Assembly: GCA_030765645.1 (NCBI GenBank) | Contig: JAVCCE010000005.1 | Location: forward strand, 1-46,605 | DNA length: 46,605 bases | DNA from: Candidatus Hinthialibacter antarcticus | GTDB taxonomy: Bacteria > Hinthialibacterota > Hinthialibacteria > Hinthialibacterales > Hinthialibacteraceae | Reading direction: 5' to 3' | Part shown: positions 37,778-46,605 of the stretch, in pieces | Layout of the letters: the number at the start of each line of letters is the position of its first letter | How positions within the stretch are numbered: the first letter of the stretch is position 1 | Translations under genes and position numbers: made by a program | The notes under the pieces: model-generated | Told to the model about the DNA's origin: nothing | Databases searched by the model: none | What the model saw: the letters and a program-made list of their open reading frames with translations, nothing else

Positions 37778-38051
37778 GATGTCCTCCAGGGCTATCAAAA
37801 AGCAAGAATAAGACCAAAAGATTAAAATAAGGTAATCTATACAACCATCTGATATTACTTCACAAACAGAGAAGCAATCTCTACGGTCTGAACAACAAAC
37901 CGATTAAAACATTCTTATTTTGACTCATAAATTATCACAGCAAAGTATACTACAATGAATAAGGGCGGCGACGCCAGCTCTTCCCCCGGTTGGAAGAGTA
38001 AAAAGAAACCATTACACGAGCAACATGGAAATTCACCGGAGCATTCGATTT

Positions 38052-39983
38052 ATGAGTCTGCGATTTCGGCTCACGCTTGGTTTGATCGCCGTTATTTTAT
38101 TGGCGTACGCATTTCTTTCCGTTGTCGTCATCCAACACGTCAACCGCGTTTTTTTGCATGAAGTCCAAAACCGCGTCCGGCTTGATTTAAATTCCGCCCG
38201 CCGGGTGTTTGACGGTCATGCAAAGCAAATTTTAGAACGACTGGAAACTGTCCGCGACCTGCACCAGACCGAATTAAATATCCAACATCTAAAAGATGAT
38301 ATCCACAATCTATTTTCATCCGTACAGAATAAAAAAATCTGTGATCTGATGCTTCTCGTCAATCCAGAGGGCGAGGTCATTTTTCGCGCACATCAACCAG
38401 ACAACACAAGCGGCGATTATTCGCAAAACCCTCTGGTTGAGCAAGTGCTGCAAACACGCGCCCCGGCGACGGGCGCATTTCTCGCGCCGCTAGACCAACT
38501 TACGGTGGAAAACCCGGAATTGGCCGCCCGCGCAAACATCCAATTGATAGAGACGCCCGCTGCGAAGCCCACCGACGCCGTCGAACTCAATCAGGGAATG
38601 GTGCTGGGCGCCGCAGTCCCAATTTACCATCAAAGCGACCCAAACCAGCTGCTCGCGGTTGCATACGGCGCCATACTGCTGAACCGTCGCTATGATCTTG
38701 TCGACGCCATCCGCGATGAAATTTATCAAGAACCCGTGGAAGGAAAACACATCGGCATGGCGACCGTGTTTCAAGGCGACGTTCGCATCGCGACCAATGT
38801 CCCCACCGTCGAACAAGGCCGCGCCGAAGGGACCCGCTTAAGCGAAGTCGTCTACCAACGCGTCCTCGAAAACGGCGAAGTGTTCGCCGACAAAGCCTTC
38901 GTTGTCAATGATTGGTACATTACCGCCTACGAACCCATCCGCGACCCGAGCGGCGCCATCATTGGGGCGTTATACGTGGGGCTGCTCGAAACGCCGTTCA
39001 CCCAGCCGCAGCGGGTCATCATTATTTTTTTCTTACTGATGGTCTTGAGTTCCGTCCTTGCAACGCTCATTTTGCTTTCGCTTCTCATCAAACGCTTGCT
39101 GGCGCCAATCGCTCCCATTATGAAAATGGCGCACAGGGTCATCGAAGGCGACCTGAGCGCCCGGGTCGGCATTCGCCCCAAAGACGATATGGGCGTGTTA
39201 TGCGAAGCGATTGACCTCATGGCGGACGCCGTCGCCCAACGCGAAGCCATGATTAAACAACACGCCCATCAGCAAATTTCTCAAAGCGAAAAATTAGCGT
39301 CCATCGGGCGCCTGGCAGCGGGGGTCGCGCACGAAATTAATAATCCATTGACCGGCGTCTTGACCTTTGCTCATCTGCTTCGCGAAAAACCCAACCTGAC
39401 CGGGCAAGATAAAGACGACCTCAATGTGATCGTAAACGAAACCACCCGCGTTCGTGAAATTGTGCGGGGCTTGCTTGACTTTGCGCGTGAATCGCCGTCC
39501 AAAAAAGAACCGCTGCAAGTAAATGATGTCATTATGCGGGCCATCAAGTTAGTCGGCGCCAACAAAGAATTCCGCAACATAACAATTCAGACGGCGCTCG
39601 ACGCTCAACTGCCTCTCACTTACGGCGACCCGAACCAGTTGCTACAAGTGGTTCTCAATCTTTGCCTCAACGCTTGTGAGGCCATGCCGTCCGGCGGACA
39701 ATTAACAATCAACTCCGAACAAATAGACGATCGGGTTATCGTCACGATTCAAGACACAGGTTGTGGAATTATTCCAGACAATTTAGAAAAAATATTCGAC
39801 CCCTTTTTCACCACCAAACCCGTCGGCAAAGGCACCGGCCTCGGGCTTAGCGTCAGCTATGGAATTTTGAAGGCGCACGGGGGTATGCTGGAATGTGAAA
39901 GCGAATTCAATGTAGGAACAACCTTTACGCTGTCATTACTCTTAGAAAATCAACAAGAATTGAACCAGACAAATTCTGAATAA
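38052..39983 (+). CDS. Sensor histidine kinase (Cache, HAMP, HisKA, HATPase)
   Basis: A protein of 643 residues. TM1 (about 6-28) and TM2 (about 318-342) bracket a periplasmic double-Cache-like sensor of about 280 residues ([17 protein letters not shown] and [10 protein letters not shown] are Cache features). A HAMP domain follows ([23 protein letters not shown]). HisKA has [16 protein letters not shown] (phospho-His), and the ATPase has [10 protein letters not shown] (N box), DTGCGI (G1), FDPFFTTK (F) and GKGTGLGLS (G2). All catalytic boxes are intact. I prefer the ATG at 38052, with CGGAG 10 nt upstream; an ATG at 38025 would add nine residues. It is followed after 10 nt by its likely partner, the sigma-54 regulator. 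Confidence 0.94.
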
Positions 39984-39993
39984 GTAGAAACCC

Positions 39994-41427
<1,434 letters not shown>

Positions 41428-41513: not shown

Positions 41514-44204
41514 ATGCGCCTGTTATTTATATTGTTCATCTTTCACATTCTATGTACGCCGTTTTCCATTGCGGCTGCGTACGAAGGCATCGTCATTAAT
41601 GAAATTCTCGCCGCGAACACATCAACCAATTTAGACCAACGGAACTATAACTTCGGCGACTGGATCGAACTCTACAACAGCACGGATGAACCCCAGGATT
41701 TGCGCAGCTGCTACTTGACCGATGACCCGTTTGATCTAAAAAAATGGCGAATCATTCGCGCCCGCATGGCGCCCAAATCCCACACGCTGATATGGGCGGA
41801 CGCCGAGCCGTCGATTGACCACTCTAATTTCAAACTCAATCAAACAGGCGAATTCATCGCGCTTGTCTCAAAGGACGGCGAAATCATCGACTCGCTTTTT
41901 TACCCGGCGCAAATGGCGGACGTCTCCTACGGCCGCAGCCCAGACGCCTCGTCTATCTGGCGTTATTTTATGGAGCCGACACCCAACGCACCCAATTTAA
42001 AGACCGGAGAGATTTCTCTCAATCGCATTGCCGCGCCTGTCGCGTCGCTCCCGGCGGGTTTTTACGACCAGCGCGTCCGCGTTACGCTTGACGCAGATGC
42101 AGACGCGCAAATTCACTATACGCTTGACGGCAGCCTCCCCACGCTTGACTCGCCGCTCTATCAACGCCGTTTGGTTTTTTCGCAAACCAGCGTCCTGCGC
42201 GCCCGGGCGTTTTCTGTCGGTCGAATCCCGAGCCGCGTCGTAACGCATACGTATTTGATTGGCGAACAAGTGGCCCTGCCAGTTGTATCGCTAGCGGCGG
42301 AACCCGACCATTTCTTTGATGACGAAATTGGCATTTACGTCGATGGCTCCAATGGAACCACCGGCAATTGCTCTGATGATCCGCGCAATTGGAACCAGGA
42401 TTGGGAACGCCCCGTTAGCGTTGAATTTTTTGAGACGGACGGAGCCCCTGGCTTTACGCTGGATGCAGGCGTTAAAATTTACGGTGGATGCAGCCGTCAA
42501 CGCGACCGGCGCTCGCTCGCCATTTTCGCCCGTGAAAAATATGGCGCCGCAGAACTCGCCTATCCACTGTTTCCCGACAAGCCCATCCAATCCTTTCAAT
42601 CGTTTGTTCTACGAAATTCCGGCAACGACGCAGAACACACTCTCATCCGCGACGGCTTGATGCAAGCGACCGTCAAAGGCCAATTGGATATTGATTACCA
42701 AAGTTTCAGGCCCGCGGTTGTGTTCCTAAACGGTGAATACTGGGGGCTGTATAACATTCGGGAAAAAATCAACGAGCATTATGCGGCCTCCAACCACGGC
42801 GTTGCGCCCGATCAAGTTGACCTGCTCTACAACGACCGCAAAATCTTCTCTGGCGAAAAAGACCACTACGAAGCCTTGCGATTGTTCTTGCTGCGAAATG
42901 ACTTGGCTGATGCTGACACATACCGTTGGGTCAAAACTCAAATGGATATCAATGAATATATCAATTATCAAATCGCGCAAATCTATTTTTCTAACACCGA
43001 CTGGCCCAGCAATAATCTAAAATATTGGAGACCACATACGCCATCCGGCCGCTGGCGTTGGATTTTATTTGACACCGATTTCGGGTTCGGCCTCAAAGAC
43101 AACGGACTATCGCACAACACACTGGCATTTGCGCTTGACCCCAATGAAACCGGATGGCCCAACCCGGCCTGGTCAACGCTGCTGTTTAGAAAACTCATCA
43201 GGAACGACGAGTTTAAGCAGACCTTTATTCAACGATTCACTGTTTGTTTACAAGCAGCATTTGAACCCGCCCGCGTGATGGACTTGGTCGAATCATTCAG
43301 CGCACAAATCGCCGCCGAAATCCCAAGACATATTTCACGTTGGGACGCTCCCGATTCATTACAGGCTTGGCAAAATAAAATTTCTGGAATGAATACGTTC
43401 GCGCGAGTCCGGCCTCGAGTAATCTATCGCAACCTTGAACGCGAATTTGATCTGAACGAACGTATCGCTATCGAAATAAAAACAATCGGCGATGGGCGTG
43501 TATACGTCGCTGGGGCGCCGCTATTCGACGGAGAAAACCAGATTGAACTTTACGCCGACATCCCGGTTACGTTACGCGCGGTCCCGCTCGCCGGCAGCCG
43601 TTTCGTCAATTGGGAACCCTTTGACGAAACCCACGCAGATAAAATTTCACTAACGCCGCAATCTGCGCAAACCATTTCAGCCGTATTTGAACCTGGCCCT
43701 TCTCTTGTTATCAACGAAATTCACTATCACCCGTTCATTGGAAGCGGCAACCAAGACTATGAATATATCGAACTATTGAATGCGGGCAAAACGCACATGG
43801 ACTTAGAGGGATACAAACTATCCGGCGGCGTGAATTTTATCTTCCCAGAAGAGATGTCGATCTCGCCCGGCGACTATCTCATTCTGGCGAAAGACGCTTC
43901 GCTCTATCCGCATCTTGAGTGCCAGGTTCTATCATGGGGAGACAGCAAACTAGCGAACGAAGGTGAAAGAATTCATCTGCAAGGCCCCATGGGCGAGACA
44001 ATCGACTCGGTGCACTATAATTCGTCGTCGATCTGGTCGCATAACGCAGACGGCGCGGGGTTTTCGCTATCGCTGGTGGATCCCAATTCCGATCACGATG
44101 ATCCAGACAATTGGTTTGCCAGCCCATCTCCTGGTGGAACTCCAGGGCAACAGAATTTCCAAACGCCTCCAACGAAAATTCAAGACTGGATGTACCATAA
44201 TTAA
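41514..44204 (+). CDS. Secreted CotH-kinase / lamin-tail-domain protein
   Basis: A protein of 896 residues. After a signal peptide (about 1-22) comes a lamin-tail (LTD) domain, about 23-155 (IVINEILAANTST, DWIELYNSTDEPQDL). A chitobiase/hexosaminidase-type module (about 175-245, IHYTLDGSLPTLDSPLY) follows. The CotH kinase-like domain spans about 260-610: FFETDGAPGFTLDAGVKIYGG, FVLRNSGNDAE, LNGEYWGLYNIREKI, and NLKYWRP...WRWILFDTDFGFG. A short repeat-like stretch and a second LTD domain (about 730-870, LVINEIHYHP, DYEYIELLNAGKTHMDL) end the protein. CotH-family kinases phosphorylate proteins in spore coats; the role of secreted LTD-CotH proteins is unknown. It sits between two regulators and may be their target. 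Confidence 0.88.
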   Translation: MRLLFILFIFHILCTPFSIAAAYEGIVINEILAANTSTNLDQRNYNFGDWIELYNSTDEPQDLRSCYLTDDPFDLKKWRIIRARMAPKSHTLIWADAEPSIDHSNFKLNQTGEFIALVSKDGEIIDSLFYPAQMADVSYGRSPDASSIWRYFMEPTPNAPNLKTGEISLNRIAAPVASLPAGFYDQRVRVTLDADADAQIHYTLDGSLPTLDSPLYQRRLVFSQTSVLRARAFSVGRIPSRVVTHTYLIGEQVALPVVSLAAEPDHFFDDEIGIYVDGSNGTTGNCSDDPRNWNQDWERPVSVEFFETDGAPGFTLDAGVKIYGGCSRQRDRRSLAIFAREKYGAAELAYPLFPDKPIQSFQSFVLRNSGNDAEHTLIRDGLMQATVKGQLDIDYQSFRPAVVFLNGEYWGLYNIREKINEHYAASNHGVAPDQVDLLYNDRKIFSGEKDHYEALRLFLLRNDLADADTYRWVKTQMDINEYINYQIAQIYFSNTDWPSNNLKYWRPHTPSGRWRWILFDTDFGFGLKDNGLSHNTLAFALDPNETGWPNPAWSTLLFRKLIRNDEFKQTFIQRFTVCLQAAFEPARVMDLVESFSAQIAAEIPRHISRWDAPDSLQAWQNKISGMNTFARVRPRVIYRNLEREFDLNERIAIEIKTIGDGRVYVAGAPLFDGENQIELYADIPVTLRAVPLAGSRFVNWEPFDETHADKISLTPQSAQTISAVFEPGPSLVINEIHYHPFIGSGNQDYEYIELLNAGKTHMDLEGYKLSGGVNFIFPEEMSISPGDYLILAKDASLYPHLECQVLSWGDSKLANEGERIHLQGPMGETIDSVHYNSSSIWSHNADGAGFSLSLVDPNSDHDDPDNWFASPSPGGTPGQQNFQTPPTKIQDWMYHN

Positions 44205-44468
44205 ACAGAGCGCTCAGGGCTTCATTTTTTCTCTCGCTTCATACACTGTATAATTTCTTCATACATTCACTTCCTGCTTTTTATATATTTGGCTCGATGG
44301 CCTCAAAAAACTATACGCTTCATATCCTCATTAAATAAAACAAGTTACGCTGCGCTTCGTTTTTTTATTCATTCTTAAACGAACTTGGCGCCATTCGTGC
44401 ATTTATACATTCACGAATGAGATCACGGATGAAAACAAAAGGGCCAATCGCCCAGGGAGACATACATC

Positions 44469-46052
44469 ATGATCGCCGAACGCCGCCTACTTGTCGTTGA
44501 TGACGAACCTATTGTTTGTGAAAGTTGCCAGCGAATCTTCGCAGGCAGAGGTTTTCAAGTTGATTCAAGCACCGATTCAAGCCAAGGCTTACAACTCGCC
44601 GCCGATAACCACTACAGCGCCATCTTGCTTGATCTCCACATGCCGGGGATCACAGGACTCGAGTTTTTACATCAGCTGCGCGACCGCAGCATTGATTCTC
44701 CCGTGATGCTGATTACCGGCTACCCAAGCGTCCCGACCGCAGCGCAGAGTATGCGCCTTGGCGCGGCGGATTATATTGCAAAACCCTTTTCGCCGGATGA
44801 AATACTCAGCGCAGTCAACCGCTTGTTTGAAGAAGAACCTGTTGAAAATTTCCCTGACCAATCCCCAAACACACAAGCGTCTCATCCGCCCGTAAACGAA
44901 TATCGCTTTGTACAGAACTCCTGGTACACCGTAGATAACACAGCATACGTTTCAACCGGCGCACTTGTCGCCTCACGCATTGGCGCTGAAATTCAAGACA
45001 TCCAACTGCCTCAAGTCGGGCAAATGGTCTACCGGGGGCTTCCTTACGCGTCAGTCCATTGGAGCGACGGCAAGCAAAGCCTGATTGCTTCTTCGCTCAC
45101 AGGCGCCGTCGTCGCCGTCAATCCAGCGTATATTTCAAATCCTGAAACGTTATTTGAGCGCCCAATCCATGAAGGTTGGCTCGCGCAAGTTCGACCAACG
45201 CAAATTGAAGAAGACTCAAAGAATTCAACCCAACGAAACGTCGTCATTGTTTCTTCAAACGGCGGTATGATTTCAGAAATCGGCAAGCGCCTGCAGGATT
45301 ACGGCTCTAGCGTAAAAGCGGTCAATTCAACCGAAGCAGCCAAAACGCTCTTCAACCATCAACCATTGCCGCTCGTCATCTGGGATGATTCTTCCTTTGG
45401 AGAAGACGGCCCATCCAAACTCGGTGAAATGCTCGAGCAAAATCCGGGTCTCAAAGCAATCGTCTACAACCGGGATGAACAAACCCTTGAGTTTGACTAC
45501 CGCCATTATCCAATTTTTTATTACGGCATCGAACCGATGGAAGATAGCGAATTAATTGAAGCGCTGAATTCAGCCTTTGTTGCGAAGCCCGTAACACGAG
45601 TAGTGCGCTCATCGACGCCTCTGCCTTCAACGGTTAGCAAAATACAGATTACGAACCGCAGCAACGAAACCAATACGTTGCTATCGTCAGGCATTTTACT
45701 TGACCGCAACACAGGCTTCGGCGCAATTCTCATCGACCAGCTTTTGCGCGAAGGGTTCCCCATCCTGGTTGAATACGGCGAAAAATATCACAGCGCCAGT
45801 ACATTAACCAACGAGGAAAAACAATGCGCCCGCCTGATCCACCTGAATGTAGAGTTTGGGTCCGGCATCCATGGATCAATCCGAAATAACCGGTTTGAAA
45901 ACGGCGATAAGAATAGCCTGGCAGAAGAGATCACAATTCACGCCAACACGGGTCTCAGTAGCGCATTCAATTTTGGCGAGGCAAGCCAGGCGTTGGCCGA
46001 ATATCTCTATCAACGGCTGACAGCCAGTCAAAAGAGCGCAGCATCAAACTAA
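44469..46052 (+). CDS. Response regulator fused to a GcvH-like domain and a second receiver-like domain
   Basis: A protein of 527 residues. The N-terminal REC (about 5-122) is intact: LLVVDDE, AILLDLHMPG with Asp55, LITGY, AKPFSPDE. A linker leads to a segment (about 145-246) that follows the glycine-cleavage H-protein fold: NSWYTV, IQLPQVGQMVYRG, LIASSLTGAVVAVN, NPETLFERPIHEGWLAQVRPT. The lipoyl-Lys position is not clearly kept; K202 lies close by in an altered SDGKQS context. A third segment (about 256-372) looks like a degenerate receiver, and about 390-520 is unrecognised. GGGAGA lies about 10 nt before the ATG. Its REC is a paralogue of the one in the regulator at 39994. It has no DNA-binding domain. 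Confidence 0.8.
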   Translation: MIAERRLLVVDDEPIVCESCQRIFAGRGFQVDSSTDSSQGLQLAADNHYSAILLDLHMPGITGLEFLHQLRDRSIDSPVMLITGYPSVPTAAQSMRLGAADYIAKPFSPDEILSAVNRLFEEEPVENFPDQSPNTQASHPPVNEYRFVQNSWYTVDNTAYVSTGALVASRIGAEIQDIQLPQVGQMVYRGLPYASVHWSDGKQSLIASSLTGAVVAVNPAYISNPETLFERPIHEGWLAQVRPTQIEEDSKNSTQRNVVIVSSNGGMISEIGKRLQDYGSSVKAVNSTEAAKTLFNHQPLPLVIWDDSSFGEDGPSKLGEMLEQNPGLKAIVYNRDEQTLEFDYRHYPIFYYGIEPMEDSELIEALNSAFVAKPVTRVVRSSTPLPSTVSKIQITNRSNETNTLLSSGILLDRNTGFGAILIDQLLREGFPILVEYGEKYHSASTLTNEEKQCARLIHLNVEFGSGIHGSIRNNRFENGDKNSLAEEITIHANTGLSSAFNFGEASQALAEYLYQRLTASQKSAASN

Positions 46053-46125
46053 CAGTACCTTTAACAAAGCGATAACGGAAAGAAGGTCTTGCCTTTTTCT
46101 CCGTCCATCCACTCCCCACTATCCG

Positions 46126-46154
46126 GGGCGGCTCCCCAGCCGCCCTCTTTTTTT
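46126..46154 (+). terminator. Rho-independent terminator after the REC-GcvH gene
   Basis: GGGCGGCT and AGCCGCCC form an 8-bp GC-rich stem around CCCC, followed by TCTTTTTTT. It lies about 75 nt past the stop. Confidence 0.9.
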
Positions 46155-46356: not shown

Positions 46357-46429
46357 TCCCCTGTAGCTCAATTGGTAGAGCATGCGGCTGTTAACCGCAG
46401 TGTTGTTGGTTCGAGTCCAACCGGGGGAG
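46357..46429 (+). tRNA. tRNA-Asn (anticodon GTT)
   Basis: A 73-nt cloverleaf with acceptor TCCCCTG/CGGGGGA, D arm GCTC/GAGC, anticodon stem TGCGG/CCGCA around loop CTGTTAA, and T loop TTCGAGT. The discriminator base is G and no CCA is encoded. The remaining 176 nt to the window end show no gene. Confidence 0.97.
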
Positions 46430-46605
46430 CTTTTAATCCCTCTATCGAACCTACCTAAGACGCCGTTAACACATTCAGCTTTTTCATACTTTTCGTATCT
46501 TCAAACACGTTGGCGAGTTATCTGAATAGCAATTACTAGAATCAAATCTCTTCAAATATTGAATTGGATATCAACCCGAAATAATACTTCTTAATTTCAA
46601 ATCAA

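Follow-up and report, generated by a model that had tools for sequence, protein, structure and literature searches.

A lysine-less H-protein-like domain and a tentative maturation-protease-like tail in a response regulator of Candidatus Hinthialibacter antarcticus

Introduction

The H-protein fold is known as a lipoyl swinging arm, and hydrogenase is known to be controlled by a kinase and an NtrC-type regulator in HoxJ/HoxA-type systems. Here we describe a response regulator gene from Candidatus Hinthialibacter antarcticus that recalls both. The gene lies in a stretch of 46,605 nucleotides (contig JAVCCE010000005.1), hereafter called the window. The parts of the regulator are of familiar kinds, but their arrangement is new: behind its receiver stands a domain of the GcvH family (PF01597), assigned by a profile match above the cut-off and carrying the H-protein signature with a GW motif near its end. 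It differs from GcvH in lacking the lipoyl lysine, in a hairpin one residue longer, and in its fusion to a receiver. The locus resembles the HoxJ/HoxA-type systems in pairing a histidine kinase with a sigma54 activator and in a possible link to hydrogenase, but here a membrane kinase of the Cache type acts as sensor, and what appears to be the dedicated target is not the hydrogenase operon but a further regulator. Two NCBIfam models, NF045810 and TIGR03077, are related to lysine-less GcvH-like proteins; searches of open-access papers turned up no account of a response regulator that contains a GcvH domain.

Results

A conserved four-domain regulator

The regulator is real, well conserved, and no artefact. 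The open reading frame announced by the original prediction is present at precisely the coordinates given and encodes 527 residues (Table 1), and five orthologues align over their full length at 30–35% identity, the GcvH part showing conserved glycine, proline, and tryptophan positions. The gene occurs in 4 of the 14 genomes examined from the phylum, all of one family (the window genome, G003, G004, and G006), and a fifth copy comes from genome G014, on a contig (L004) whose title gives Candidatus Sumerlaeota. The sections below set out what was computed: the domain makeup, the loss of the lysine and of the conserved metal ligands, the conserved promoter and upstream element, and the conserved neighboring genes.

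Table 1. Features of the regulator locus in the window.
Feature	Coordinates	Strand	Basis or detail
Membrane sensor histidine kinase (Cache, HAMP, HisKA, HATPase)	38025..39983	+	Pfam
NtrC-type sigma54 activator (receiver, AAA+, Fis-type HTH)	39994..41427	+	Pfam
Element CATACACTGTATAATTTCTTCATAC, conserved upstream of the gene; putative NtrC binding site	44240..44264	+	One exact copy in each of the 4 gene-bearing genomes
Predicted sigma54-type promoter TTGGCGCCATTCGTGCA	44385..44401	+	46–73 bp before the start codon in 4/4 genomes
Regulator ORF (REC, GcvH-like, pseudo-REC, maturation-protease-like)	44469..46052	+	527 aa
Intact receiver, residues 8–116	44490..44816	+	Pfam 8.8e-30; alignment
GcvH-like domain without lipoyl lysine, residues 148–251	44910..45221	+	GCV_H 2.4e-10; lysine column
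Pseudo-receiver, residues 256–380	45234..45608	+	Beta3 Asp retained; acidic pair and Lys gone
Degenerate hydrogenase-maturation-protease-like domain, residues 382–527	45612..46049	+	NCBIfam, hhalign, AlphaFold/Foldseek
Terminator-like inverted repeat, then T-run, 3' of the regulator gene	46125..46154	+	GGGGCGGCTCCCCAGCCGCCCTCTTTTTTT, read in the sequence

The first receiver is intact, as had been claimed, and has the full residue set: the acidic pair D11 and D12, the phospho-Asp D55, T83 at the Thr/Ser position, and the Lys K105. The degenerate second receiver that the original prediction described was likewise borne out, both by profile comparison (hhalign probability 91, E 1e-6) and by Pfam, whose Response_reg model matches it in three of the five orthologues (best 2.6e-4). 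An AlphaFold model of the full-length protein was of low confidence (pTM 0.30), and the packing of the domains was left uninterpreted.

Two further features of the window may be recorded here. A CRISPR array occupies positions 1–2060; its 36-base repeat (ATTTCCACCGATGAATTTCGGTGGCCCCATTGAAGC) is present 28 times with a period of about 74 bases, and reading of the window ORFs brought no obvious cas gene to light. A tRNA-Asn (GTT) lies at 46357–46430, shortly 3' of the regulator gene and near the contig end.

An H-protein fold without its carrier lysine

That the region behind the receiver follows the H-protein pattern was confirmed in several ways. The GCV_H match reaches 40.8 bits where the curated cut-off is 22.2, a cut-off also exceeded in the orthologues from G003, G004, and G006, and a PDB sequence search with residues 145–246 ranks GcvH structures first (3tzu, 3.6e-7). 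The H-protein motifs quoted in the original prediction fall at residues 180–185, 209–218, 224–232, and 236–243, and the hairpin HWSDGKQSLI is encoded at 45057–45086.

The lipoyl lysine had been described as displaced or missing, and the alignment decides for missing. The lipoyl column holds K in true H-proteins; besides the sequences named next, five GcvH-type sequences of the alignment keep the lysine. The column holds G, N, E, G, and G in the five orthologues and K in none of six aligned Desulfobacterota proteins that join a receiver to a GcvH-like domain (REC-GcvH proteins, below). K202, proposed as a possible equivalent of the carrier lysine, adjoins this column, one column off, and is private to the window copy; near the lipoyl position the orthologues carry R, P, S, or M. 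A functional lipoyl carrier employed in signaling, with K202 or another lysine lipoylated, would fit the GcvH family fold and the closeness of K202 to the lipoyl position, but given the lysine column we reject it as highly improbable. Because the lysine is missing from every orthologue and from the six Desulfobacterota domains, the suggestion that a working swinging arm has been reused in signaling is not supported, and the alignment argues for an H-protein fold without carrier function. Moreover, the window genome encodes a separate, normal GcvH with the lysine (C47, E 4.8e-40), so the regulator is not this organism's H-protein; when its surroundings were considered with regard to glycine cleavage (GcvP/GcvT), the neighbors were the kinase, NtrC, and CotH genes.

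A C-terminal domain resembling hydrogenase maturation proteases

The C-terminal domain, previously left unassigned, can now be assigned tentatively. Among 18,950 NCBIfam models, the maturation-protease model TIGR00072 ranks first for the tails of four of the five orthologues (E 5.6e-4 to 0.045), all four matches falling below the curated cut-off; the window copy's own domain matches none of these models. A profile of the tails, compared with 13 maturation proteases from these genomes, gave an hhalign probability of 96 (E 2.7e-9), where 20 column-shuffled versions reached at best E 0.04 and an unrelated profile a probability of 0.6. The AlphaFold model of the domain alone is moderately confident (pLDDT 79, pTM 0.78). 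In a Foldseek search with this model, maturation-protease structures were weak matches at ranks 2 and 9 (E 0.2–0.3; for 5ttx, E 0.21 and TM 0.42), and the fold search was set aside as a firm assignment and taken as suggestive only. Homology to the hydrogenase maturation proteases is thus likely, not proven.

The likeness to HycI, HybD, and HoxW (PF01750, TIGR00072) covers their first two thirds, including the GN.L..DdG.G and D......PG regions. The tail differs from them in being fused to a regulator, in missing the His region, and in its metal ligands: the positions D17, D62, and H92, invariant in the 13 proteases, are not conserved as Glu/Asp, Asp, and His in the tail family, and the window copy has T and N with no alignable His. 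The gene-bearing genomes additionally have intact proteases at their hydrogenases.

A putative dedicated target of the neighboring kinase/NtrC pair

The regulator gene adjoins the kinase and the sigma54 activator in three genomes, with the order kinase–NtrC–regulator the same in G003 and G004; in G006 some 14 kb separate it from the activator. The NtrC orthologues of the gene-bearing genomes are 64–68% identical, with near-identical helix-turn-helix segments, and among the NtrC proteins compared, the next closest to that of the window (46%) comes from a Desulfobacterota REC-GcvH cluster (G057). We also observed that GSFSGA replaces GAFTGA in the sigma54 contact loop of these orthologues. An antiphage role was discarded, as the PADLOC matches of the NtrC protein are to its generic AAA and HTH parts. 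Between NtrC and the regulator, at 41514–44204, lies a gene for a CotH-kinase/LTD protein, and a similar gene stands directly upstream of the regulator copy in G006.

The promoter pattern TTGGCRC-N6-TGCA precedes the regulator in all four genomes for which the upstream region is available, and under a stricter sigma54 pattern the promoter in Table 1 is the sole match in the 46.6 kb window (0.37 expected). Upstream of this promoter, all four related gene-bearing genomes have the element CATACASTGTA-N8-TCATAC; with 3 mismatches allowed, 0.06 matches to it would be expected across the window. The element was found by inspecting these same regions, so its uniqueness genome-wide serves as the independent test: each of the four genomes has a single perfect copy, and the ten relatives without the regulator gene have none even when up to 2 mismatches are allowed; the sole additional match across the 14 genomes is one with 2 mismatches in G003. 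Single-site copies with 1 mismatch were near or only somewhat above a reversed-pattern control in most genomes and were not interpreted. This distribution indicates that the neighboring kinase/NtrC pair probably controls the regulator gene, and the simplest reading of the sequences is that the gene is a dedicated target of the linked NtrC through putative binding to the element. The hydrogenase operons were dismissed as further sigma54/NtrC targets, because none of the three regions checked upstream of hydrogenase operons contains the promoter pattern.

In G000, G003, and G004 the regulator's receiver is most similar to the receiver of the linked NtrC (102–107 bits); the next among the matches listed score 76–79 bits. 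This resemblance, and a dedicated site that apparently couples expression to that NtrC, would fit a phosphate sink or feedback device, made on demand, in which the receiver would divert phosphate from NtrC and so weaken the signal of the kinase while the other domains served as stabilizing ballast. The G006 orthologue, however, has lost exactly the receiver and retained the promoter, the upstream element, and all downstream domains, an unexpected outcome if the receiver were what mattered, and we therefore regard a sink as unlikely. The same loss indicates that the domains downstream of the receiver are probably the effector.

Related proteins in other phyla

The original prediction held that reuse of the carrier fold in signaling would be unusual. 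The combination of a receiver with a GcvH-like domain is not unique to the window: matches spanning both domains occur in at least 4 of 395 Desulfobacterota genomes, a lower bound because few candidates were scored per genome. In one Desulfobacterota genome, G057, the gene order is histidine kinase, NtrC, REC-GcvH, and REC-STAS, followed by REC-GcvH, REC-GcvH-4Fe4S, HdrB, and an HdrA-like gene. Both REC-GcvH transcription units have a good predicted sigma54 promoter (TGGCACAAYAATTGCTC), and no further match occurs within the 19.9 kb; 200 shuffles gave none at all. By this comparison a kinase–NtrC–REC-GcvH module with predicted sigma54 promoters, related to that of the window, is present in a Desulfobacterota genome. 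At L073 979–2331, a REC-GcvH protein fused to a 4Fe-4S dicluster (HdrC-like) domain adjoins HdrB- and HdrA-like genes.

REC-GcvH genes are also found in G094, G028, and G199 beside kinases, some beside HybA/NrfD or cytochrome genes, where redox subunit names, here and throughout these neighborhoods, were read from the sequences without a profile scan unless Pfam is cited. Membrane-anchored, lysine-less GcvH-like proteins lie beside HybA/NrfD, histidine kinase, and NtrC genes in G001, and an Acidobacteriota genome has similar proteins. Other lysine-less forms were noted: a protein that combines two GcvH-like domains in tandem with a membrane-type N-terminus (L056 739–1995), two with a cysteine-rich N-terminal region ahead of the domain (L061 1312–2229 and L062 1072–2013), and a cysteine-rich one in L083, not far from genes for a PAS kinase and an NtrC-type protein. 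The REC-GcvH proteins of Desulfobacterota and the membrane-anchored proteins resemble the regulator in a domain mostly without the lysine and in a setting beside kinase, NtrC, and electron-transfer genes, and the former also in their predicted sigma54 promoters. They differ in that none was found with the pseudo-receiver and protease-like tail, which were seen only in Sumerlaeota-type genomes; at 1e-18 the full architecture was not found in the 395 Desulfobacterota genomes, and only a REC-GcvH-FeS protein reached that level.

The placement of these proteins next to Hdr, HybA/NrfD, and cytochrome genes, and the weak fold evidence for the tail, would suit a general adaptor whose lysine-less GcvH domain docks on Hdr-, HybA/NrfD-, or Hox-type electron-transfer complexes, the protease resemblance of the tail being incidental. 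We consider this somewhat doubtful, since four of the five tails match maturation-protease models ahead of all others and the profile comparison stands far above its shuffled controls.

A possible link to hydrogenase

On L004 the orthologue is immediately followed by a Hox [NiFe]-hydrogenase operon encoding HoxE, F, U, Y, H, and an intact HoxW. This operon, together with the protease-like tail, points to hydrogenase as the target we infer. Hydrogenase genes are adjacent in only one of the five orthologues; the four related gene-bearing genomes each have two [NiFe]-hydrogenase large-subunit genes, and the relatives G002 and G005 have hydrogenases and no regulator gene. Separately, the window genome (C11; L146 10293–17261) has an HdrABC-like cluster with an Mvh-like [NiFe] hydrogenase and its own maturation protease, which suggests electron bifurcation in this lineage.

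Discussion

Weighing these observations, we see about an even chance that the protein is a non-DNA-binding, lipoate-free response regulator that acts by protein contact on a redox enzyme, most likely a Hox-type [NiFe] hydrogenase, under kinase/NtrC/sigma54 control. All binding events, all phosphorylation events, and the hydrogenase target in the scheme that follows are what we infer. The membrane sensor kinase would phosphorylate the NtrC-type activator, which would bind the upstream element and drive the regulator from its predicted sigma54 promoter; the same kinase would probably also phosphorylate the regulator's own receiver, which may gate the effector module. Output would be by protein–protein contact through the lysine-less GcvH fold, the pseudo-receiver, and the maturation-protease-like fold without a conserved metal site, three domains that would descend from active proteins and have lost their active residues. 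The module may bind the redox enzyme or a maturation intermediate, most likely of the Hox-type hydrogenase, and so adjust the enzyme's maturation or activity.

A bolder form of this proposal is tentative, though possible: the dedicated target of the two-component system would be a second, non-DNA-binding regulator built of retired enzyme domains, a phosphorylation-controlled mimic of a maturation protease that controls the maturation or activity of [NiFe] hydrogenase, and lysine-less H-protein domains would form a wider, unrecognized class of adaptors in anaerobic redox signaling.

The findings suggest that redox signaling in two or more phyla has taken over the H-protein fold as an adaptor free of lipoate, and that a regulatory pseudo-enzyme may have arisen from a hydrogenase protease. 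With a promoter and an upstream element private to the gene, this would be a single-target circuit, one that is directly testable.
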